Of a DNA stretch of 32,347 nt, positions 1,134 to 26,008 are shown in pieces. Below the pieces are notes generated by a model, which had not been told where the DNA came from, made no database searches, and was given only the letters and a program-made list of their open reading frames with translations. This DNA comes from Pirellulales bacterium (GTDB lineage: Bacteria > Planctomycetota > Planctomycetia > Pirellulales > Thermoguttaceae), in the NCBI GenBank assembly GCA_016935315.1, contig JAFGRD010000048.1:1-32347 (forward strand), in the 5' to 3' direction. A program made the position numbers and the translations under genes. The stretch's first letter is position 1, and every line of letters starts with the position of its first letter.

Positions 1134-1247
1134 AAGCGTTGTTGGCTGGTAGTCAATTTCAATGAGAAATTCTCTGCGCACCCGGGCCGTCGCCTCGGAA
1201 CACGACGCGTCGGGGTCCGCGTCATTTTTACGTTGGAGAACGTAGAC

Positions 1248-4200
1248 ATGTCCAAGCATCTTTTCGTCCGATCGGCCATGCTGCCCTTGGCGGCGTGGGC
1301 AGTCGCCCTATGGGGCGCCGTCACCCTGGTTGGCAGCGTCTATGGTGCCGAATCGAGCATTGAGGCAGCTCGACTCGAACGTTTCACGCACACCGACGGC
1401 ACCGACTTCTTCGCGCTGAGCCTACGAGCCAAAACCGTGGCGCCGGCGGCGGGCGCCCGCGACGTCGTCGTGCTGTTCGACACGGCGGCCAGCCAGACGG
1501 GCGATTTCCGGAAGGAAGCGATGGCTGCGCTAAAGGGCGCCCTCTCGGCACTCGCTCCCACCGACCGAGTGCACCTGCTGGCCGTGGATCTCAACGCCGT
1601 GCCGATGACGAAAGGCTTCGTCGCCCCGGATAGCCCGGAGATGGCCGAGGCGCTGCAGAAGCTCGATCGTCGGGTTCCGCTGGGCGCCGGAGACATGCAA
1701 AAGGCGATGACCGCGGCGGCCGACAGTTTCGCCGCCGATTCGGGCAATCCCCGCGCGGTGGTCTACATCGGCGAAGGCAGCAGCCGCGCCAATCTGCTGG
1801 ACGCCGAGGAGTCCAGGCAAATCGTGGCCAGGTTGCGCGACGCTCACATCCCCGTCAACAGTTGCGCCATCGGTCCGCGTCCCGACCGACAGCTCCTGGC
1901 CGCGTTGGCGGGCCGCACGGGCGGAACGATCGTGGAGGCGGACCAGCAGTCCGGCCAGCGCTTGGCTCAGGCGGCCCAGGCCGCGGTCACCTGGCCTTCG
2001 GCCAACGTGAGTTGGCCGGCCGGATTCAACGTCTATCCCGAACAGGTTCCACCGTTGCGGTCCGATCGCGACAGCGTGGTGATTGGCACGTTCTCCGGTC
2101 AAGGGCCGTTCGATATCAGCATGGATACCACCGGCGCGGCAGGCGCCGAAACGCTTTCCTGGTCGGTGACACCGGGGCTATCGACCGATGACAACAACTA
2201 CCTGGTCCAGTTGGTCGATGAAGCCAAAATCGACGGAGGCCTGGGCCTACCGGTGGTCGATTCGGCGACCTTGAAGCTGATTCGAGAAGAGATCAACACC
2301 GGTGGACGCAGCTTCAGCCAACTGGCACGCCAGGCCTTGGCGTCGGGAAACCTCGACAGCGCCGAGCGGCTGGCCGCCGAGGCCTTGCGCCGCGATCCGG
2401 GCAATCCGGACGCGCTGGCGGTCCAAGGGGCGGTGGCGAAGCGTCGCCAGGGCGAGGTGCCACCGGCCGCCGAGCCGCTGGTCGACGCGGGCATTCCGCC
2501 CGTGGCCGGTGTTCCGGGCCCGGGCGGCGATGACTTCAATCTGATCGGCCCTGCCGGCGGCGGCGGCGAGTTCGCCGAAGCGTTCGGCCAGGAACGGAGG
2601 ATGGTCGAACAGGTCATGCGGACCCAGGTGCAAAATGACGTCAACCAGGCCCGGGCCCAGATGGGAACCTATCCCGAAGGGGCCGCGCAGAACCTCAAGA
2701 TCTCGCTGGAGACGCTCAAGCAGGCCCCGGATCTCCGTCCCGAGGTCCGCGACCAGTTGGTCGGCGTGGTTCAGGCGGCGTTGCGTGCGGCCCGCCGGCG
2801 CCAGGTCGAGGTCGAATACGAGCGCCAGCAGCGCGACCAGGTCCTGGCGGAAGCCAAAGAACGCATGCTCATCAATGAGAACCTGTTGCGCAAGCAACAG
2901 AAGGACAAGCAGTTGATGGACCGGTTCGACTCGCTGATGGACGAAGGCCATTACCGGCTCGCCGAAGAAGCGGGCGCGGCGGAAGTCCAGAAGGGAATCG
3001 TCAACGAGGCCCTCGAGTCCGACATCGCCAAGGTAGCTCGCGTGGCGACCCATAACTCCCGGAGTATGGGCTACCTGGCCGACGCGTTGGCGCTGCGGGT
3101 GTTGCGTCAGAAGGGCGTGGTCGACGCGCTGTATCAGACGGAGCTGTCGCACGTTCCCTTCCCCGACGAACCACCCATCGTATACCCGGCCGCCGAAGTC
3201 TGGGAGCAGTTGTCGGCCCGGCGGAAGGAGAAGTACTCGTCGATGAGCCTGGACCAGCTGGGGACGAAGGAGAAAGAGATTGCCGACGCGTTGAAGTCGC
3301 CCACCGAGTTGGACGGCATCGTCGAAATGCCTTTGCAGGACGTGATCGATTTCCTCAAAGACTACCACCAGATCGAGATTCAAATTGACCACAAGGCGTT
3401 GGACCAGGTAGGCATTCAACCCGACGTGCCGATTACCAAGGACCTGAAGGGGATCTCCTTGAGGTCGGCTCTGCGGCTGATGCTGCGCGAACTGGACCTG
3501 ACCTACATGATCAAGGACGAAGTGCTCTTGATCACCACGCCCGAGGCAACCGAAGAGGAGTTGACCACCCGTGTCTATCCAGTGGCTGATCTCGTGCTGC
3601 CAATCCAGAGCAGCATGGGGATGGGCGGCATGGGAATGATGGGCATGGGCGGCATGGGAATGGGCGGAGGCATGGGAGGCATGGGCGGCATGGGCGGCAT
3701 GGGAGGCATGGGAGGCATGGGCGGAGGCATGGGGGGTATGGGTGGCATGGGAGGAGGCATGGGCGGCATGGGAATGGGCATGTTTAACGTGCCGCGTGGC
3801 GTCCTGCCTGAGGTCCCGCCCGGCGGGTTCCGTGCCTTCTCGGTCGAGGACGACCTGTCCGCCTCGCCCAAGGCGGCCAAGAACGCGCCCAGTGCGGGCA
3901 AAGCGGAAGCAATGCCCACCGACTTCGCGCCGGGAACCGATCCGCACGTCGTGTGGGAGCAGTATTTCTCGGCCCACCAGCCCGAGCCGGAGGCGGTTCG
4001 CAATGCCGTTCGCCGGCTGAGAGACGCCAAGAAGTTCGACCACGTGATTGCCCTGGTCAGCGCGGCCTTGCGGCACAACCAGGCCCAGCCGTGGATGTAC
4101 GACGCGATGACCATCGCCATGCAAATCGAAGGGTGGTCGCAGGAAGAGATCGAGCGCGCCGTGATGTCGGCGGTCGACTTTGCCAACAATGCGGCCGACT

Positions 4201-5384
4201 TGATGCACGTCGGTGCCTATCTTGTCCGTCTCGGCTTGGACCGGCGGGCGTTGCAGGTGTTCCATCAGGTGGCCGAAGCGGAACCCCTTTGGCCCGAGCC
4301 TTACATGCTTGGCCTGAAAACGGCCAAGCGACTAGACGATCTGGAGGGCATCCAGTGGTCGACGCTGGGGATTCTCAGCCAGGCCTGGGCCAAGGATCAA
4401 GTGGAGGTGGGCAAAGCGGGTCTCTACGCAGCCAAGGCCGCACTGGAACGACTGCGCCGGGAGAAGCGGTTCGAAGAGGCCGAGCGATTCGAGGCCGCGT
4501 TGAATCAGGCGATCCGGCGCGACTGCGTGATTGTCGTCTCTTGGACCGGCGATGCCGACGTGGACCTGGTGGTGGAAGAGCCTTCCGGCTCGGTCTGCTC
4601 TTTGCGAAATCCCCGCACCAGCTCCGGAGGCGTCATGCTTGGCGACACCTTCTCGCGCGTCGGCGACGACAGCTTCAAGAAGGGATACCGGGAAGTCTAC
4701 GTTTGCCCCAAGGGATTCGACGGGACGTACCGGCTGCTGGTCCGCCGCGTTTGGGGCAAGGTCACGGCCGGCAACGTGTCGGTCGAAGTGTGCACGCACT
4801 ACCGCAGCGAGGACGAAGCCCACCTGAGCAAGAACATCGCCTTGACGAACGACGAGGCCGTGGTGGCGTTCGACCTGGAAGGCGGGCGCCGCCGGGAGCA
4901 ACTCCAACAGCACCAAGTGGCCAACGCGGCGGTCGGACAGATCGCCGTGGGACGCCAGGTCCTGGCCCAGCAGCTTGCAGCCGCCTTCGATCCCGCCGCG
5001 CTGAGTAGCCTGGCGATGGCCCGCAGCGGCGACGACTTCCGCTTCAACCCGTTGTTCCGGACCGGTGGGGCCGTCGGCTACCAGCCGGTGATCATTACGT
5101 TGCCGGAAGGCACCAACTTGGGGGCTACGGCCGTGGTCTCGGCCGATCGGCGTTATGTCCGCATCACGCCCCAGCCGTTGTTTTCCGGCATTGCCGAGGT
5201 CAACGTCTTCAACATGTCCACCGGCTCGAACACATCGGGGGCCGGCGGAACCGGCGGCCAGGGGTTCAGCGGCCTCGGCGGTGGTACGGGCGGGACCGGC
5301 GGCGGCTATAGCGGCGGCGGCTTCGGCGGCGGCATGGGCGGCGGCATGGGCGGCATGGGCGGCGGCGGCATGGGCATGTTCTGA
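1248..5384 (+). CDS. Giant exported VWA / TPR / STN / DUF2135-like protein with Gly-Met tracts
   Basis: The ATG at 1248 is preferred over the in-frame TTG at 1233 because GGAG lies at 1235-1238 at normal spacing. The product is 1378 residues. Residues 1-35 form a signal peptide (cleavage near VYGA). Residues ~68-260 resemble a von Willebrand A domain. Its metal-site motif reads DTAAS (Asp78) where DxSxS is expected, so the first Ser is missing. A TPR-like unit lies at ~350-402 and a charged coiled coil near 520-590. An STN-like (secretin/TonB short N-terminal) domain is at ~683-784. A Gly/Met-rich tract (788-844) comes next, then helical repeats. Residues ~1092-1190 resemble the DUF2135/YfaP fold (WTGDADVDLVV motif). 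A second Gly/Met tract forms the C terminus. The family is known mainly as large planctomycete surface or periplasmic proteins without an assigned function; a scaffold or adhesion role is a guess. It stands alone between a terminator and the convergent tsaD. Confidence 0.85.
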   Translation: MSKHLFVRSAMLPLAAWAVALWGAVTLVGSVYGAESSIEAARLERFTHTDGTDFFALSLRAKTVAPAAGARDVVVLFDTAASQTGDFRKEAMAALKGALSALAPTDRVHLLAVDLNAVPMTKGFVAPDSPEMAEALQKLDRRVPLGAGDMQKAMTAAADSFAADSGNPRAVVYIGEGSSRANLLDAEESRQIVARLRDAHIPVNSCAIGPRPDRQLLAALAGRTGGTIVEADQQSGQRLAQAAQAAVTWPSANVSWPAGFNVYPEQVPPLRSDRDSVVIGTFSGQGPFDISMDTTGAAGAETLSWSVTPGLSTDDNNYLVQLVDEAKIDGGLGLPVVDSATLKLIREEINTGGRSFSQLARQALASGNLDSAERLAAEALRRDPGNPDALAVQGAVAKRRQGEVPPAAEPLVDAGIPPVAGVPGPGGDDFNLIGPAGGGGEFAEAFGQERRMVEQVMRTQVQNDVNQARAQMGTYPEGAAQNLKISLETLKQAPDLRPEVRDQLVGVVQAALRAARRRQVEVEYERQQRDQVLAEAKERMLINENLLRKQQKDKQLMDRFDSLMDEGHYRLAEEAGAAEVQKGIVNEALESDIAKVARVATHNSRSMGYLADALALRVLRQKGVVDALYQTELSHVPFPDEPPIVYPAAEVWEQLSARRKEKYSSMSLDQLGTKEKEIADALKSPTELDGIVEMPLQDVIDFLKDYHQIEIQIDHKALDQVGIQPDVPITKDLKGISLRSALRLMLRELDLTYMIKDEVLLITTPEATEEELTTRVYPVADLVLPIQSSMGMGGMGMMGMGGMGMGGGMGGMGGMGGMGGMGGMGGGMGGMGGMGGGMGGMGMGMFNVPRGVLPEVPPGGFRAFSVEDDLSASPKAAKNAPSAGKAEAMPTDFAPGTDPHVVWEQYFSAHQPEPEAVRNAVRRLRDAKKFDHVIALVSAALRHNQAQPWMYDAMTIAMQIEGWSQEEIERAVMSAVDFANNAADLMHVGAYLVRLGLDRRALQVFHQVAEAEPLWPEPYMLGLKTAKRLDDLEGIQWSTLGILSQAWAKDQVEVGKAGLYAAKAALERLRREKRFEEAERFEAALNQAIRRDCVIVVSWTGDADVDLVVEEPSGSVCSLRNPRTSSGGVMLGDTFSRVGDDSFKKGYREVYVCPKGFDGTYRLLVRRVWGKVTAGNVSVEVCTHYRSEDEAHLSKNIALTNDEAVVAFDLEGGRRREQLQQHQVANAAVGQIAVGRQVLAQQLAAAFDPAALSSLAMARSGDDFRFNPLFRTGGAVGYQPVIITLPEGTNLGATAVVSADRRYVRITPQPLFSGIAEVNVFNMSTGSNTSGAGGTGGQGFSGLGGGTGGTGGGYSGGGFGGGMGGGMGGMGGGGMGMF
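3613..3782 (+). repeat. Gly/Met-rich tandem coding repeat
   Basis: About 55 codons of short units meaning Met-Gly-Gly and Met-Gly-Met-Gly, encoded by runs of ATGGGCGGC and ATGGGAGGC variants. Synonymous differences between units show it is not a perfectly fresh expansion. The tract links the STN-like domain to the C-terminal half of the protein. A similar but Gly-richer tract closes the gene at about 5230-5384. Confidence 0.85.
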
Positions 5385-6598: not shown

Positions 6599-8218
6599 CT
6601 AGCCGCTCTTGCCGGCCTTGGTTTCTGCCGCCGGGTTTCCCTCCGCCGGCTTCTCGGCAGTGTGGAGGTCCTTCTCGGCGCGGGCCAATTCCTCGGTCAG
6701 GTAATCGACAGCCTTCTGCAATTGGCGATCGACAAACGCCCGGTCGTCGGGCTTGGCGCCCTCCGGTTGAACGCCGGCGTCGGCGGCCGGCTTCGCGTCA
6801 CCGGCTGGCTTCGCATCACCGGCCGGCTTGGCATCGTCGGTTGGCTTGGCATCGTCGGTTGGCTTGGCATCATCGGCTGGCTTCGCATCACCGGCCGGCT
6901 TGGTATCGTCAGCTGGCTTGGTATCGTCAGCTGGCTTGGTATCATCGGTAGGCTTGGCATCGTCGGTGGGCTTCGGATCACCGGTCACGACGCGGACGAT
7001 GTCGCGCTGGCGTTGTTGGCGCAACAGAGTACCGGTCTCTCGGGCGTTGAGCTTCACCTCGAACCCCGGATCGGGCTTCACGCCCCATTCGTCTTCGTCC
7101 TTGGCGTTGGGAAAGCGGTGGATGTTCTTTCCGCTGGGACGGCGATAGCTGGCGGTGGTCAACTTCAACGCACTGCGGGGCTTCATGTCCTCCGGATCGA
7201 TCTCCAGCTCGATAACGTTCTGAACACTGCCTTTGCCCCAGGTCCTTTCTCCGACAATGACCGCCCGGTGGTGGTCTTGAAGACAGGCGGAAACGATCTC
7301 GCTGGCGCTGGCGCTGTATCGATTCACCAGCACGACCATGGGGAAGTCTTCGAAGGTGCCCTCCGCTTCGGCCTCCCAAGTCCGCTCGGGGCTGTTGCGA
7401 CCTTCGGTGCTGACCAGGCGGCCCTTGGAGACGAACAGGTCGCAGACTTCGATCGCGGAATTCAGCAGCCCGCCCGGATTGAACCGCAAATCGAGGATCA
7501 GCCCGCGCCGCCCGGCGTCGCGCATCTGTCGGACGGCCTTGCGAATCTCGCCGGCCGTGTCGCGGCTGAACGCGGTGACTCGCACGTAGCCGATCTGCTG
7601 CCGGGAAGCGAGGTTGTACTCCCAGGCGCCGTCCGCCTTGCGGCGATCGCCCAAAACGGTCTCGACGTGGATGATCTCGCGAGTCATCGTCACGTCGATC
7701 TCTTCGGTGGAATCGGCGTGAACGATGGTGATCGACACGTCGGTGCCCGCCTTGCCTTTCAGCCGCTGCACGGCCTCGTCCAGGCGGATTCCGTCGGTGC
7801 TCTCGCCCGCGATCTTGACGATCCGGTCGCCGGCCAGCAGCCCGGCCCGCTGGGCGGGCGTGCCGACCAACGGGCTGACCACGGTCAGTTGCCCGCCCAC
7901 GAGGTCGACTTGAATGCCGATGCCGCCGAACGCGCTCTCCACGGTGCTGCGAAACGGCTCCCACTCTTTCGGGCCGATGTAACTCGAGTAGGGATCCAAC
8001 TTGCCGAGCATGCCCTCGATGGCGGCTTCCATCAACTCCCGGCGGTCGACCTTCTTGACGTAGTTGCGTTCGACCTGGTCCATCGTATCAACCAGGATCT
8101 TATACAGTTCGTAGTAGTCGTCCTCGCTCGGCTTCGACCGTTCGGCCGATGCGCCGGCCGCCGCAAGACCACAGAGAACAACCAGCACCAGCAAGAAAGC
8201 AGGGATGCGTCGAGCCAT
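6599..8218 (-). CDS. Carboxy-terminal processing protease (S41 family) with Lys-Pro repeat tail
   Basis: CtpA/Prc-type serine protease that trims or degrades proteins outside the cytoplasm. The 539-residue product has a signal peptide (1-25), an N-terminal helical region, a PDZ domain (~95-180) and the S41 core. Ser304 in YSASASE and Lys329 in WGKGS form the expected Ser/Lys dyad, 25 residues apart as in the E. coli and B. subtilis enzymes. Unusually, residues ~416-481 are eleven consecutive hexapeptides of the type KPxDDA, followed by a short helical C terminus. The repeat probably forms an extended, charged linker, perhaps through cell-envelope material, but this is inference. The ATG has a strong GGAGG seven bases upstream. 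A promoter-like pair lies at 8333-8361. tsaD follows on the same strand. Confidence 0.93.
   Translation of the reverse strand: MARRIPAFLLVLVVLCGLAAAGASAERSKPSEDDYYELYKILVDTMDQVERNYVKKVDRRELMEAAIEGMLGKLDPYSSYIGPKEWEPFRSTVESAFGGIGIQVDLVGGQLTVVSPLVGTPAQRAGLLAGDRIVKIAGESTDGIRLDEAVQRLKGKAGTDVSITIVHADSTEEIDVTMTREIIHVETVLGDRRKADGAWEYNLASRQQIGYVRVTAFSRDTAGEIRKAVRQMRDAGRRGLILDLRFNPGGLLNSAIEVCDLFVSKGRLVSTEGRNSPERTWEAEAEGTFEDFPMVVLVNRYSASASEIVSACLQDHHRAVIVGERTWGKGSVQNVIELEIDPEDMKPRSALKLTTASYRRPSGKNIHRFPNAKDEDEWGVKPDPGFEVKLNARETGTLLRQQRQRDIVRVVTGDPKPTDDAKPTDDTKPADDTKPADDTKPAGDAKPADDAKPTDDAKPTDDAKPAGDAKPAGDAKPAADAGVQPEGAKPDDRAFVDRQLQKAVDYLTEELARAEKDLHTAEKPAEGNPAAETKAGKSG
6776..6973 (-). repeat. Eleven 18-bp coding repeats (KPxDDA-type hexapeptides)
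   Basis: 198 bp made of eleven in-frame 18-bp units in the S41 protease gene. The third residue alternates Thr/Ala and the fourth and sixth vary (DDA, DDT, GDA, ADA). High identity between adjacent units suggests recent expansion by slippage or unequal exchange, so copy number may differ between strains. The repeat also creates a long artificial antisense ORF. Confidence 0.9.
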
Positions 8219-23054: not shown

Positions 23055-23088
23055 TTGTGGCCGCCGCGTCTGGTAATACAATGTAATA
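23055..23088 (+). promoter_or_regulatory. Promoter with 10-bp-spaced direct repeats before the zinc operon
   Basis: TTGTGG at 23055-23060 and TACAAT at 23077-23082 are 16 bp apart. GTAATA occurs at 23073-23078 and again at 23083-23088, exactly one helical turn apart, straddling the -10 box. Ribbon-helix-helix repressors typically bind such tandem half-sites, so this is the candidate operator for the RHH protein encoded 33 bp downstream. Inferred from sequence only. Confidence 0.45.
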
Positions 23089-23120
23089 TCAACGCGGTGA
23101 CCATCTTTAGGAGCACCCCC

Positions 23121-23399
23121 ATGGCCGGTAAGCGGAAGCAGGAGACCATTACGTTCAAGGTGGACGAAGCGCTGTGGGACGCGATACGGCGAGTTCCGAA
23201 TCGTTCGGAGTTCATCCGTGCGGCCATTCTCTCGGCGCTGGAGGGAATCTGTCCGCTCTGCAACGGTGTCGGCAGTCTCACACCCGATCAGCGGCGCCAT
23301 TGGGACGCTTTTGCGAAGAGCCATGCCGTGGCGCAGTGTGCCGACTGCGACGCCATCCACCTGGTTTGCGTGGCGGCCGGAGACGACGTGCACGAATGA
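23121..23399 (+). CDS. Ribbon-helix-helix regulator with Cys-rich zinc-binding tail
   Basis: A 92-residue protein. Residues ~8-42 match the ribbon-helix-helix (CopG/MetJ-like) DNA-binding fold: the strand ETITFKVDE, then helix LWDAIRRV, then NRSEFIRAAILSAL. The tail carries CPLC (44-47) and CADC (73-76), plus His80 and Cys83, a plausible zinc site. The gene overlaps the ZnuA-like gene by ATGA and heads a metal-uptake operon, so it is the obvious candidate metal-responsive repressor. It would resemble NikR in logic, but has a Cys-based sensor instead of the ACT domain. The ATG at 23121 has AGGAG at normal spacing; an upstream extension to 23055 would cover the promoter. The metal sensed (zinc or manganese) is inferred from the neighbours. 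Confidence 0.88.
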   Translation: MAGKRKQETITFKVDEALWDAIRRVPNRSEFIRAAILSALEGICPLCNGVGSLTPDQRRHWDAFAKSHAVAQCADCDAIHLVCVAAGDDVHE

Positions 23400-24340
23400 C
23401 CCAGCCTGGTCGCAGACATGCTTGCAGACGTGCGGCGTCCGCCTCGTGCATGCCGGGGTTCTGCCTGTGGTGCGCAATCATCGTGCCGGGCTTCTGCGGC
23501 ACGGCCCGGGCGAAGCCCCTGGAGGTGTTTGTCGGCATTCCCCCTCAGGCGTATCTGGTGGAGCGCATCGGCGGCGAGCACGTGGTGGTGCATGTCCTGA
23601 TGCAATCGGGCCAGGATCCCCATACCTTCGAGGCCACGCCGCGACAGATCATGGCATTGCGCGGTGCGGAGCTCTTCTTAACGGTTGGCATGCCGTTGGA
23701 GAGTCGGTTGGCGGAGAAGATCCGGGGCAGCGGTGCGCGGCTGACCGTCGTCGATACGGCTCGGGGAATCCCACGACAGGCGATGGCCGCCGCCGGTGAG
23801 CATGACCATGGTGACGATCACGGCCACGATCATCATCACGACGTGGGCGAAGCCGACCCGCACGTTTGGCTGGCGCCTCCGCTGGCAAAGACGCTGGCAA
23901 CCAACGTCGCCGACGCGTTGTGCCGGGCCGATCCGGCGCACGCCGACGACTATCGCCGCCGCCTGGCGACGCTGAAGCAAGACCTGGACGCGGTCCACGC
24001 GGAGATCGATCGCATCTTGAGGCCGTACCGGGGACGGCCTTTCTACGTCTTCCATCCCGCGTTCGGTTATTTCGGCGCTACGTACGGGCTGAAGCAGGAA
24101 TCGGTGGAGTCCGGAGGCAAGTTGCCCGCGCCCCGGCAGCTCCGCGCACTGATCAAGCAGGCGAAGGCCGAGCAGGTGAAGATCCTCTTCGTTCAACCGC
24201 AGTTCGACCAGCGGACCGCCGCCGTGGTGGCCGAGTTGATCGGCGGGGCCGTGGTTCCGATCGATCCGCTGGCGAAGGACCTTCTGGATAACTTCCACGA
24301 AATAGCCGCGAAGATCGAGGGGACGCTTTCGCCGCGGTAG
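23396..24340 (+). CDS. Zinc/manganese ABC transporter substrate-binding protein (ZnuA-like)
   Basis: Cluster A-I solute-binding protein that captures a metal ion outside the cytoplasmic membrane and delivers it to the permease. The 314-residue product has a long basic N terminus and a hydrophobic signal segment (~20-38, cleavage near ARA). The metal-binding histidines are His76 in DPHTFE, His156 in DPHVWL and His220 in VFHPAFGYF, with a late acidic ligand in VVPIDPLA. Between the first two is a His/Asp-rich loop (~135-149) containing HDHGDDHGHDHHHD, the hallmark of zinc-specific ZnuA proteins, so zinc is more likely than manganese. The ATG at 23396 overlaps the stop of the RHH gene and has only a distant GGAG, suggesting translational coupling. 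It is followed by the ATPase gene after a 50-bp gap. Confidence 0.93.
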   Translation: MTQPGRRHACRRAASASCMPGFCLWCAIIVPGFCGTARAKPLEVFVGIPPQAYLVERIGGEHVVVHVLMQSGQDPHTFEATPRQIMALRGAELFLTVGMPLESRLAEKIRGSGARLTVVDTARGIPRQAMAAAGEHDHGDDHGHDHHHDVGEADPHVWLAPPLAKTLATNVADALCRADPAHADDYRRRLATLKQDLDAVHAEIDRILRPYRGRPFYVFHPAFGYFGATYGLKQESVESGGKLPAPRQLRALIKQAKAEQVKILFVQPQFDQRTAAVVAELIGGAVVPIDPLAKDLLDNFHEIAAKIEGTLSPR

Positions 24341-24390
24341 GCTGCTTGTCGCCTGGGAACAGAGAACTCTCAGCGAAAGGTTCGAACATC

Positions 24391-25164
24391 ATGTCGCCTG
24401 AAGGGCCGGTCATCGATTTACAGGGAGTCAGCTTTGCCTACGACCAGGCGCCTGTTCTGGAGGACGTGAATCTGTCGGTTGCCCGGCGCGAATCGATTTG
24501 CATCGTGGGTCCCAACGGGGGTGGGAAAACCACGCTGTTGAAGCTGATTTTGGGGCTGCTGAATCCGCAGTCGGGCCGGGTGGAGGTGTTCGGTCAGACC
24601 CCGCGTCGTGCCCGGCTGCGCGTCGGATATATGCCCCAATTCTACCGGCACGACCCGCAATTCCCCATTACCGTCACGGACATCGTGCTGATGGGCCGGC
24701 TGGGGCGGCCGGGATTGGCCGGGTGGTTTGGCTGGTACGATCGCGCCGATCGCCGGGCGGCGCGCGACGCCTTGGCCGAGGTCGGCATGGATTCGTTCGC
24801 CGGTCGCCCGTTCAGCGAGCTTTCCGGCGGCCAGCGACAGCGGGTGTTGATTGCCCGGGCGCTCTGCTGCCAGCCCGATCTGTTGCTGCTGGACGAGCCA
24901 ACCGCCTATGTCGACACGCTGATCGAAGCCCGGCTGGTCGAGATTCTCAAGGAGCTCAACCACCGGATGACCATTGTGATGGTGTCGCACGACCTGGGAT
25001 TCGTTTCGGAGATGGTGCAGCGAGTGGTGTGCGTCAATCGCCGCGTGCTGGTCCATCCGGCCGAGGCGATCAGCAGCGAGGCGATCCGCGAGGTCTACGA
25101 CGGAGAGGTCCAAATGGTCCGGCACGACGACGTCCTTTCGCAGCGGGGCTCCCGCGATGAGTGA
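24391..25164 (+). CDS. Zinc/manganese ABC transporter ATP-binding protein (ZnuC-like)
   Basis: The ATPase subunit that powers metal uptake, 257 residues. Walker A is GPNGGGKTT (40-48), the Q-loop YMPQF (80-84), the signature LSGGQRQR (144-151), and Walker B LLLLDEPT (164-171), followed by the D-loop YVDT. The H-loop is in MVSHDLGFVS. The C-terminal extension to EVQMVRHDD is typical of metal-type transporters. I chose the ATG at 24391 because it fits the family start and has AAAGG upstream; the frame extends 15 codons further without support. Its last 8 bases overlap the permease gene. Together with the flanking genes it forms one transport complex at the cytoplasmic membrane. Confidence 0.95.
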   Translation: MSPEGPVIDLQGVSFAYDQAPVLEDVNLSVARRESICIVGPNGGGKTTLLKLILGLLNPQSGRVEVFGQTPRRARLRVGYMPQFYRHDPQFPITVTDIVLMGRLGRPGLAGWFGWYDRADRRAARDALAEVGMDSFAGRPFSELSGGQRQRVLIARALCCQPDLLLLDEPTAYVDTLIEARLVEILKELNHRMTIVMVSHDLGFVSEMVQRVVCVNRRVLVHPAEAISSEAIREVYDGEVQMVRHDDVLSQRGSRDE

Positions 25165-26008
25165 GCTGTTCGACGCCCTCGGCGACCCCGACTTCCCGCT
25201 GATGCGCCATGCGCTGTTTGCCGGAGTGCTGGCCAGCGTGGCGTTCGGCGTGATGGGTACGTACGTGGTCACGCGGCGGATCAGCTACCTGGCCGCGGCG
25301 ATTGCCCATTGTGTGCTCGGCGGCATCGGGGCCGCGCTCTATTGCCAGGCGGCACTGGGCCTTGCCTGGTGTCAGCCGATGTACGGAGCCGTGGCGGCTG
25401 CCTTGATCGCCGCGCTGATCATCGGACTGGTCAGCCTCTACGCCCGCCAACGCGAGGACACGGTGATCGGGGCCTTGTGGGTGATCGGCATGGCGGGCGG
25501 GCTGCTGCTGATCGCCAAGACTCCCGGCTACGTCGATCCGATGAATTACCTTTTCGGCAACATCCTGCTGATCTCGCGGCACGATCTGTGGCTCGCGGCC
25601 GGCTTGGACGTGCTGGTCGTCGGACTGGTTTTGCTGCTGCACAACAAGTTCCTGGCCGTCTGCTTCGACGAACAATTCACCGAACTGCGCGGCGTCCGCG
25701 TGAAGTGCCACTATCTGCTGCTGCTGTGCCTGACCGCGTTGACCGTGGTGCTGTTGGTCCGCGTGGTGGGCATCGTGATGGTGATTGCCCTGTTGACGCT
25801 GCCGGCGGCGGTGGCCGGCCACTTCTCGCAGACCTTGCGGCAGATGATGGTTCTGGCGGTGCTGTTCTGCGTTGTTTTCGTCACGGCCGGCCTCGGCATC
25901 AGCTATCCCTACGATCTGCCCACCGGCCCCGTGATCGTAGTCCTGGCCGGCGCGGTCTATCTGGCCGTGGCCGTCGGCTGTCGGCTGTTGCGACCCCATC
26001 GGACATAG
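25157..26008 (+). CDS. Zinc/manganese ABC transporter permease (ZnuB-like)
   Basis: Membrane subunit of the metal importer (ABC-3 family), 283 residues with about eight hydrophobic helices. Landmarks are GVMGTYVVTRRISYLAAAIAH near the start, the conserved MNYLFGNILLI loop (about 130-142) that contacts the ATPase, and VVGIVMVIALLTLPAAVAGHF in the second half. The first 8 bases overlap the end of the ATPase gene (ATGAGTGA), so translation is coupled. It is the last gene of the operon: RHH regulator, binding protein, ATPase, permease. No terminator hairpin with a T tract is visible after it. Confidence 0.95.
   Translation: MSELFDALGDPDFPLMRHALFAGVLASVAFGVMGTYVVTRRISYLAAAIAHCVLGGIGAALYCQAALGLAWCQPMYGAVAAALIAALIIGLVSLYARQREDTVIGALWVIGMAGGLLLIAKTPGYVDPMNYLFGNILLISRHDLWLAAGLDVLVVGLVLLLHNKFLAVCFDEQFTELRGVRVKCHYLLLLCLTALTVVLLVRVVGIVMVIALLTLPAAVAGHFSQTLRQMMVLAVLFCVVFVTAGLGISYPYDLPTGPVIVVLAGAVYLAVAVGCRLLRPHRT

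Follow-up and report, generated by a model that had tools for sequence, protein, structure and literature searches.

A candidate zinc-responsive ribbon-helix-helix repressor at the head of a znuACB operon

The 32,347-nucleotide stretch at positions 1 to 32,347 of contig JAFGRD010000048.1 of a Pirellulales bacterium (GenBank assembly GCA_016935315.1), hereafter the window, carries a znuACB operon whose first gene encodes a small ribbon-helix-helix (RHH) protein with a Cys/His tail. We propose, with a probability of about three in four, that this protein is an autoregulated, zinc-responsive repressor of znuACB that acts in place of Zur and holds zinc in its tail. The proposal is built on the gene order, the operator in the promoter, the joint conservation of the two, the invariant Cys and His residues, and the lack of a recognisable Zur in the genome to which the window belongs. 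Since many bacteria that are only distantly related share both this gene order and the operator, the protein would seem to represent a repressor class so far without a name. The features of the locus are given here by their positions in the window.

23073 to 23089, plus strand: operator GTAATAC-AAT-GTAATAT (consensus GTAWTAC-N3-GTAWTAC), over the presumed -10 box TACAAT (23077-23082)
23109 to 23113, plus strand: presumed ribosome-binding site AGGAG of the RHH gene, read directly from the sequence
23121 to 23399, plus strand: RHH protein with Cys/His tail, 92 residues; RHH part at about residues 7-42, then C44, C47, H60, H68, C73, C76, H80 and C83
23396 to 24340, plus strand: znuA-like zinc-binding protein, 314 residues, with a His-rich loop (PF01297, E 2.3e-67)
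24391 to 25164, plus strand: znuC-like ATP-binding cassette (ABC) ATPase, 257 residues (PF00005, E 3.5e-33)
25157 to 26008, plus strand: znuB-like ABC-3 permease, 283 residues (PF00950, E 4e-66)

Linkage to znu genes and the shared operator

The RHH protein was searched at E <= 0.001 against 99 genomes, its own included, of which 61 belong to the same family and 38 to other families of the order. Twenty genomes gave a match, all among the 61 and none among the 38, and in 20/20 the next gene on the same strand encodes ZnuA (one is cut by a contig end). Farther afield, the best 80 of 288 relatives from a genome_contigs scan were taken; 17 of these loci carry proteins identical to earlier ones and were dropped, and four of the 63 new loci end too near the RHH gene, leaving 59 that are evaluable. 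ZnuA is next on the same strand in 50 of these 59 non-redundant loci from outside the family. The expectation of the initial annotation that homologs would lie beside znu genes is borne out in both samples. By the submitters' names, the far relatives span 16 phylum-level groups, including Planctomycetota, Bacillota, Spirochaetota, Myxococcota (titled Deltaproteobacteria), Zixiibacteriota, Hydrogenedentota, Lentisphaerota, Nitrospinota, Acidobacteriota and Gemmatimonadota, and nearly all are titled as metagenome bins. The tree of the RHH proteins has few columns and a bootstrap that is not settled, and the groups are mixed in it; horizontal transfer of the RHH gene is a possibility.

The linkage bears on the alternative that the protein is a plain autoregulated RHH repressor, or an antitoxin-like protein, that rides with the znu genes and has a structural tail without a metal switch. 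RHH proteins are often small autorepressors, and three homologs in Spirochaetota lie away from zinc genes, as this alternative would allow. The linkage in 20/20 and 50/59 loci is, however, far beyond chance for genomes with one to five ZnuA matches each, no toxin gene or toxin-like partner, the mark of an RHH antitoxin, adjoins the RHH gene in the window, and the tail holds more invariant columns than the RHH part (12 and 8, respectively, in 83/83 non-redundant homologs). We consider this alternative very improbable. The putative functional class, that of zinc-uptake regulators, is read from what is found at these loci, namely an RHH gene linked to zinc-uptake genes and a conserved operator in its promoter.

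That operator extends a GTAATA repeat at 10-bp spacing, which had been noted in the initial annotation. Its two copies are indeed at 23073 and 23083, with a spacing of exactly 10 bp, and span a possible -10 box. Promoters of the family carry GTAATA-N4-GTAWTA ahead of the RHH gene, in many cases in the fully palindromic form TAATACAATGTATTA, and the consensus over all groups is the 17-mer listed above, in which each heptamer, as well as the whole, is its own reverse complement. Across 83 non-redundant promoters, the best match has no mismatch in 20, one in 41, two in 16 and at least three in 6. With up to two mismatches the operator is present in 77/83 RHH promoters, against 0.14 expected from dinucleotide shuffles, a count that is partly fitted since the final pattern was shaped after these promoters had been seen; the controls used the same pattern. 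The reversed pattern is found in 0/83 of these promoters. At up to three mismatches, the operator is found at 0/39 ZnuA loci of the family that lack the RHH gene (53 such regions, less 14 whose ZnuA match was partial or weak or ran into a contig end), and the 756,630 bases of the 80 far loci contain no further site at up to one mismatch. The family pattern GTAATANNANGTAWTA occurs a single time in the 7,102,429-base genome of the window, at the RHH promoter, which argues that the promoter repeat is not due to chance.

TTGAC is found within about 30 bases upstream of 38 of 78 operators (2.1 expected), and in 33 it lies 2-6 nucleotides away, which leaves the operator occupying the stretch between the -35 and -10 elements. 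A sigma-70 scan gave no promoter at the operator site in the window; we read TTGTGG (23055-23060) as a poor -35 element that is paired with TACAAT as the -10 box.

A further alternative is that the repeat is the site of another regulator, or a promoter feature, and that the RHH protein acts elsewhere. Ownership of the operator is inferred from co-occurrence only, and a similar site precedes an unrelated gene in a genome without an RHH match (G025). Against this, the operator goes with the RHH gene in 77/83 promoters and is absent from 39/39 family ZnuA loci without it, it is single in the genome of the window, and its symmetric heptamers 10 bp apart are what known RHH operators would lead one to expect of neighbouring RHH dimers. 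We give this alternative the least weight of those considered here.

Searches for additional sites suggest a local operator within the family. The looser pattern GTAWTANNNNGTAWTA gave 61 matches in the 61 family genomes, 15 of them at RHH promoters, and its reversed pattern gave 93. The other 46 sites, examined as candidate members of a wider family regulon, were rejected against these 93 matches; eight that were read by eye have no evident zinc gene, several lie inside open reading frames (ORFs), and we take them to be chance. The site in G025, an operator-like GTATTACGATGTATTA at L220:1908-1923, stands 26 nucleotides before a hybrid-cluster-protein-like ORF and is probably a chance occurrence as well. 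Outside the family, the genome-wide scan was made with the perfect 17-mer only, in 30 RHH genomes, where it occurs at 7 places, 6 of them ahead of RHH-led ZnuA; the reversed pattern occurs at one place. The seventh place (L325:1501-1926, in a Lentisphaerota genome) has the operator before a 134-residue Cys/His-rich protein without a Pfam or NCBIfam family. As read from the sequence, a resistance-nodulation-division efflux-like gene ends about 1 kb upstream, with a methyltransferase-like ORF between on the other strand.

The RHH protein, its tail and its operon

The window protein has a basic N-terminus, the strand TITFKVD and two helices with the turn PNRSEFIR, followed by a tail in which a helix carrying H60 and H68 lies between C44PLC47-NGVG and C73ADC76-x3-H80-x2-C83. 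C44, C47, C73, C76, C83, H60 and H68 are identical in 83/83 non-redundant homologs, and the proposal thereby withstood the conservation test that had been set for the tail Cys residues. On the strand, K13 is invariant and T11 is kept in 82/83.

Of the description in the initial annotation, an RHH protein with CPLC and CADC-x3-H-x2-C, the motifs are confirmed (C44-C47 and C73-C83), and the RHH assignment by sequence is sub-threshold, the PF01402 (RHH_1) match of the window protein having E 0.002 and 18.4 bits against a cut-off of 20.5. This protein stays below the cut-offs of all Pfam and NCBIfam models. Among 58 members, PF01402 matches 3 at E <= 0.001 (best 2.2e-4), and the NCBIfam model aCcr1, which we take to describe an RHH family, matches 55 at the same threshold; the window protein scores 22.6 bits against its cut-off of 60. 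An AlphaFold model has helices at 16-23, 28-40 and 55-67 and strands at 68-72 and 79-83. Its top VIA structural match is the RHH domain of PutA (2rbf; residues 7-49, Z 4.0, root-mean-square deviation 2.5 over 38 residues), which by itself would be no proof of an RHH fold, and Foldseek alone gave no match to the model at E <= 0.001. A profile of 19 sequences, compared with solved structures, weakly matched anti-TRAP (3lcz, E 0.0058) and DnaJ (1exk, E 0.35) through CPxCxGxG. Viral contigs yielded four weak matches only, confined to RHH residues 6-47.

The operon is laid out as had first been described, with znuA, znuC and znuB in this order behind a small RHH gene, as supported by the PF01297, PF00005 and PF00950 matches, and with the overlapping ATGA at 23396-23399 serving as stop of the RHH gene and start of the znuA-like gene. 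The upstream neighbour of the RHH gene in the window encodes a response-regulator receiver protein. The start of the RHH gene had to be revised. It had been set at 23055, where there is only an in-frame TTG, which we rejected as an artefact of the ORF finder; the ORF from ATG 23121 to TGA 23399, which gives the 92-residue form, is likely the real one. This start is preferred because AGGAG lies just ahead of it, because the similarity that homologs show to the 92-residue form sets in at its residues 1-4, because 11 of the 20 family homologs lack any other in-frame start codon upstream, and because the longer ORF would run through the operator. By eye, no common zinc-related gene was seen downstream of znuB across the loci. 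Elsewhere in the window, a large protein with long MGGMGG repeats is encoded at 1233-5384 (plus strand) and, as read from the sequence, a PDZ-protease-like protein with DAKPADDAKPTD repeats at 6599-8218 (minus strand).

Several observations weigh against the proposal. The far loci are the best matches of their scan, and the 208 weaker of the 288 relatives likely have more varied neighbours. Some ZnuA-family match is present in 54 of the 61 same-family genomes, and many of these ZnuA genes stand without an RHH gene. Close homologs at L071, L076 and L080 (Spirochaetota) have neither zinc genes nor the operator and are followed by a GAF-HD protein (Pfam on L071), and no operator was found at L096, where a CobW-family gene is near. 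H80 is kept in 74/83 homologs and is mostly Tyr elsewhere. The AlphaFold model, built from 58 sequences, is of middling confidence (predicted local distance difference test 73.6, predicted template-modelling score 0.36), and the CxxC...CxxC site could be purely structural. ZnuA, ZnuC and ZnuB of the window all fall below the NCBIfam cut-offs of the zinc families that they resemble, and ZnuA-family importers can transport manganese. The His-rich loop does not mark zinc decisively, with a maximum of 2-13 His per 30 residues in 65 RHH-linked ZnuA proteins and 2-9 in 13 low-identity ZnuA proteins without RHH; it was dropped as a zinc marker.

The strongest alternative is a repressor of this metal importer whose signal is another metal (manganese, iron or cadmium) or the redox state of the Cys residues; the zinc site would then act as a thiol switch or have a structural part. 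Zinc sites of the structural and redox kinds often contain all-Cys CxxC pairs, and NCBIfam manganese models also match the window ZnuA. The manganese models, however, score lower than the closest NCBIfam matches, which are the zinc families AztC for ZnuA and AztB for ZnuB, both below cut-off. Moreover, H60, H68 and C83 are conserved besides the two CxxC pairs, CobW-family partners occur in Spirochaetota, and the second ZnuA-like system of the genome (C31) has neither RHH gene nor operator. We judge another metal or a redox signal to be unlikely, and keep zinc as the preferred signal.

Partner genes, weaker relatives and Fur-family regulators

The nine far loci in which ZnuA is not the next gene include other candidate partners. 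Behind the RHH gene of L068 there are matches to ZnuB and ZnuC and none to ZnuA. A CobW-family GTPase lies directly behind the RHH gene in L083 (6270-7229) and L093 (3331-4359) and one gene further in L096 (7364-8677), all in Spirochaetota; the family was called by Pfam for L083 and L096 and by likeness for L093, and the operator is degenerate (GTAAGACAATGTAACAC) in L083 and L093. The CobW family is often under zinc control. These partners would fit a zinc signal; L071, L076 and L080 would not.

In L056 and L095 an unclassified hydrophobic protein of about 220 residues follows the RHH gene. It is encoded behind RHH gene and operator, without znu genes, at L223:3624-4274 (the same gene as in L056), L225 (L095) and L227; it carries the motifs HPxH, LPHSGH and VPCCLxDI and is presumably a membrane protein. 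A search of 294 genomes of the phylum found relatives in 29; an RHH gene precedes the gene at 3 of the 8 loci read and does not at the other 5. The protein may represent a new family of zinc transporters.

A profile search of 392 evenly drawn genomes of the phylum (E <= 1e-6) gave matches in 19. In eight of these, at E <= 5e-36, the match covers most of the length; they include the genome of the window and G021, with an RHH-led znuA. Among the six others, the neighbour of the RHH gene is ZnuA in three cases (truncated at a contig end in one) and the hydrophobic protein in three. Intermediate matches come from G270 and G327, each with one locus in which a znuC-like gene lies behind the RHH gene, accompanied in G270 by a znuB-like gene. 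The remaining nine are much weaker (E 1.3e-12 to 3.7e-15) and contain extra Cys pairs; tblastn with ZnuA, ZnuC and ZnuB of the window found no match in the sequence read at these loci. These RHH proteins, with CPxC and additional Cys pairs and no znu match nearby (L233-L241), are possibly regulators of other metals or of redox. G270 has four RHH matches in all: one (L232:3333-3602, minus strand) lies behind a 710-residue gene product that reads as TonB-receptor-like, and at L231 the RHH gene stands opposite znu-like genes with a Fur-family gene near.

The genome of the window has three Fur-family genes, whose best solved-structure matches are PerR (two) and Fur (one). The sequence read on either side of these genes, which in two cases stops at a contig end, contains no znu match. 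On best match and tree, the three proteins look like PerR or Fur and not like Zur, and the search for a zur gene that had been suggested at the outset came back empty to that extent. Two relatives without the RHH gene, G027 and G051, have a Fur-family gene that is divergent from and adjoins znuA. In a tree of 43 rows (two short fragments dropped and two further fragments from RHH genomes left out), this pair forms a clade of its own (100/100) on a long branch, and none of the Fur-family rows from 18 RHH-bearing genomes falls within it. The closest solved structure of the G027 protein is a Fur; the G027 and G051 proteins may be Zur.

Outside the family, Fur and ZnuA searches were run on the genomes of 30 of the 63 loci, bins that may be incomplete. 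Four of the 30 gave no FUR match, and in none do a FUR match and a ZnuA match share a contig at a distance of 20 kb or less. With one to five ZnuA matches per genome, the RHH-led ZnuA is the sole one in 17/30. The window genome, for its part, has a second ZnuA-like operon (L128, G000:C31) with two permeases, without RHH gene or operator, which perhaps carries manganese or iron.

Proposed mechanism and comparison with known systems

Operator binding, repression, the zinc signal, the direction of the switch and the number of dimers per site are the parts of the proposal that we infer. RHH dimers read the major groove with a paired strand, in which T11 and K13 would be the likely base contacts. 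Two RHH dimers would sit side by side on GTAWTAC-N3-GTAWTAC, each on its own heptamer and separated by one turn of the DNA. The 10-bp spacing of the symmetric heptamers would suit two dimers on one face of the DNA, covering the -10 region and the promoter, hence repression. When zinc is sufficient, zinc in the tail (CPxCxGxG ... CxxC ... HxxC) would hold the DNA-binding form and keep znuACB off; when zinc is scarce, the metal would be lost, DNA binding would fail and the importer would be made. As the RHH gene heads the operon and would be controlled by the operator that its product binds, the circuit would include negative feedback. The two CxxC pairs are perhaps structural, and H60, H68, H80 and C83 are candidates for a second, sensing site.

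According to a review of zinc homeostasis, the regulators that control zinc uptake in bacteria are Zur and AdcR (PMC8000910), and in a Paracoccus zinc-depletion study a CopG-family entry appears as a table row only (PMC5387054). Among open-licence full texts in PubMed Central (PMC), no paper on a regulator of the present kind was found, subscription papers, preprints and regulon databases being outside the search. We think it rather likely that these proteins make up a third structural class besides Zur and AdcR: an RHH repressor with a Cys/His sensor and an operator of its own, found in 16 phylum-level groups of mostly uncultured bacteria, replacing Zur and, in some lineages, reaching CobW GTPases and an uncharacterised hydrophobic family that may be zinc transporters. 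If true, this would close a gap in lineages where znu genes occur without a recognisable Zur, it would provide a second RHH metal sensor besides NikR, and with the operator as a guide, genomes for which metagenomes are the only source could be searched for zinc regulons and new zinc transporters.

Zur and AdcR share with the RHH protein a presumed job, the zinc-dependent repression of znuABC or of a zinc ABC importer. They differ from it in structure: Zur has the Fur fold and the Zur box, AdcR has the MarR fold, and Pfam matches of the window protein at E <= 1 include neither PF01475 (Fur) nor a MarR domain. NikR is closer in layout, with an RHH part, a C-terminal metal-binding part and control of a metal ABC importer. 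Its metal is held, however, in an ACT-like nickel domain and its operator is a long palindrome, in contrast to the short Cys/His tail, the 92 residues and the GTAWTAC-N3-GTAWTAC of the present protein; no NikR model is among the NCBIfam matches at E <= 1. Anti-TRAP and DnaJ are zinc proteins without an RHH DNA-binding part. They resemble the CPxCxGxG half of the tail, by a weak match, whereas the second CxxC pair and the HxxC are arranged otherwise. MetJ, Arc, CopG and PutA have the RHH fold, which the present protein probably shares, and tandem operator half-sites; they bind other ligands or none, and to our knowledge no RHH repressor of their type has such a Cys/His tail. By these comparisons, the protein belongs to none of Zur, AdcR and NikR and may best be described as a metalloregulator of known fold with a new tail, a new operator and a new target.

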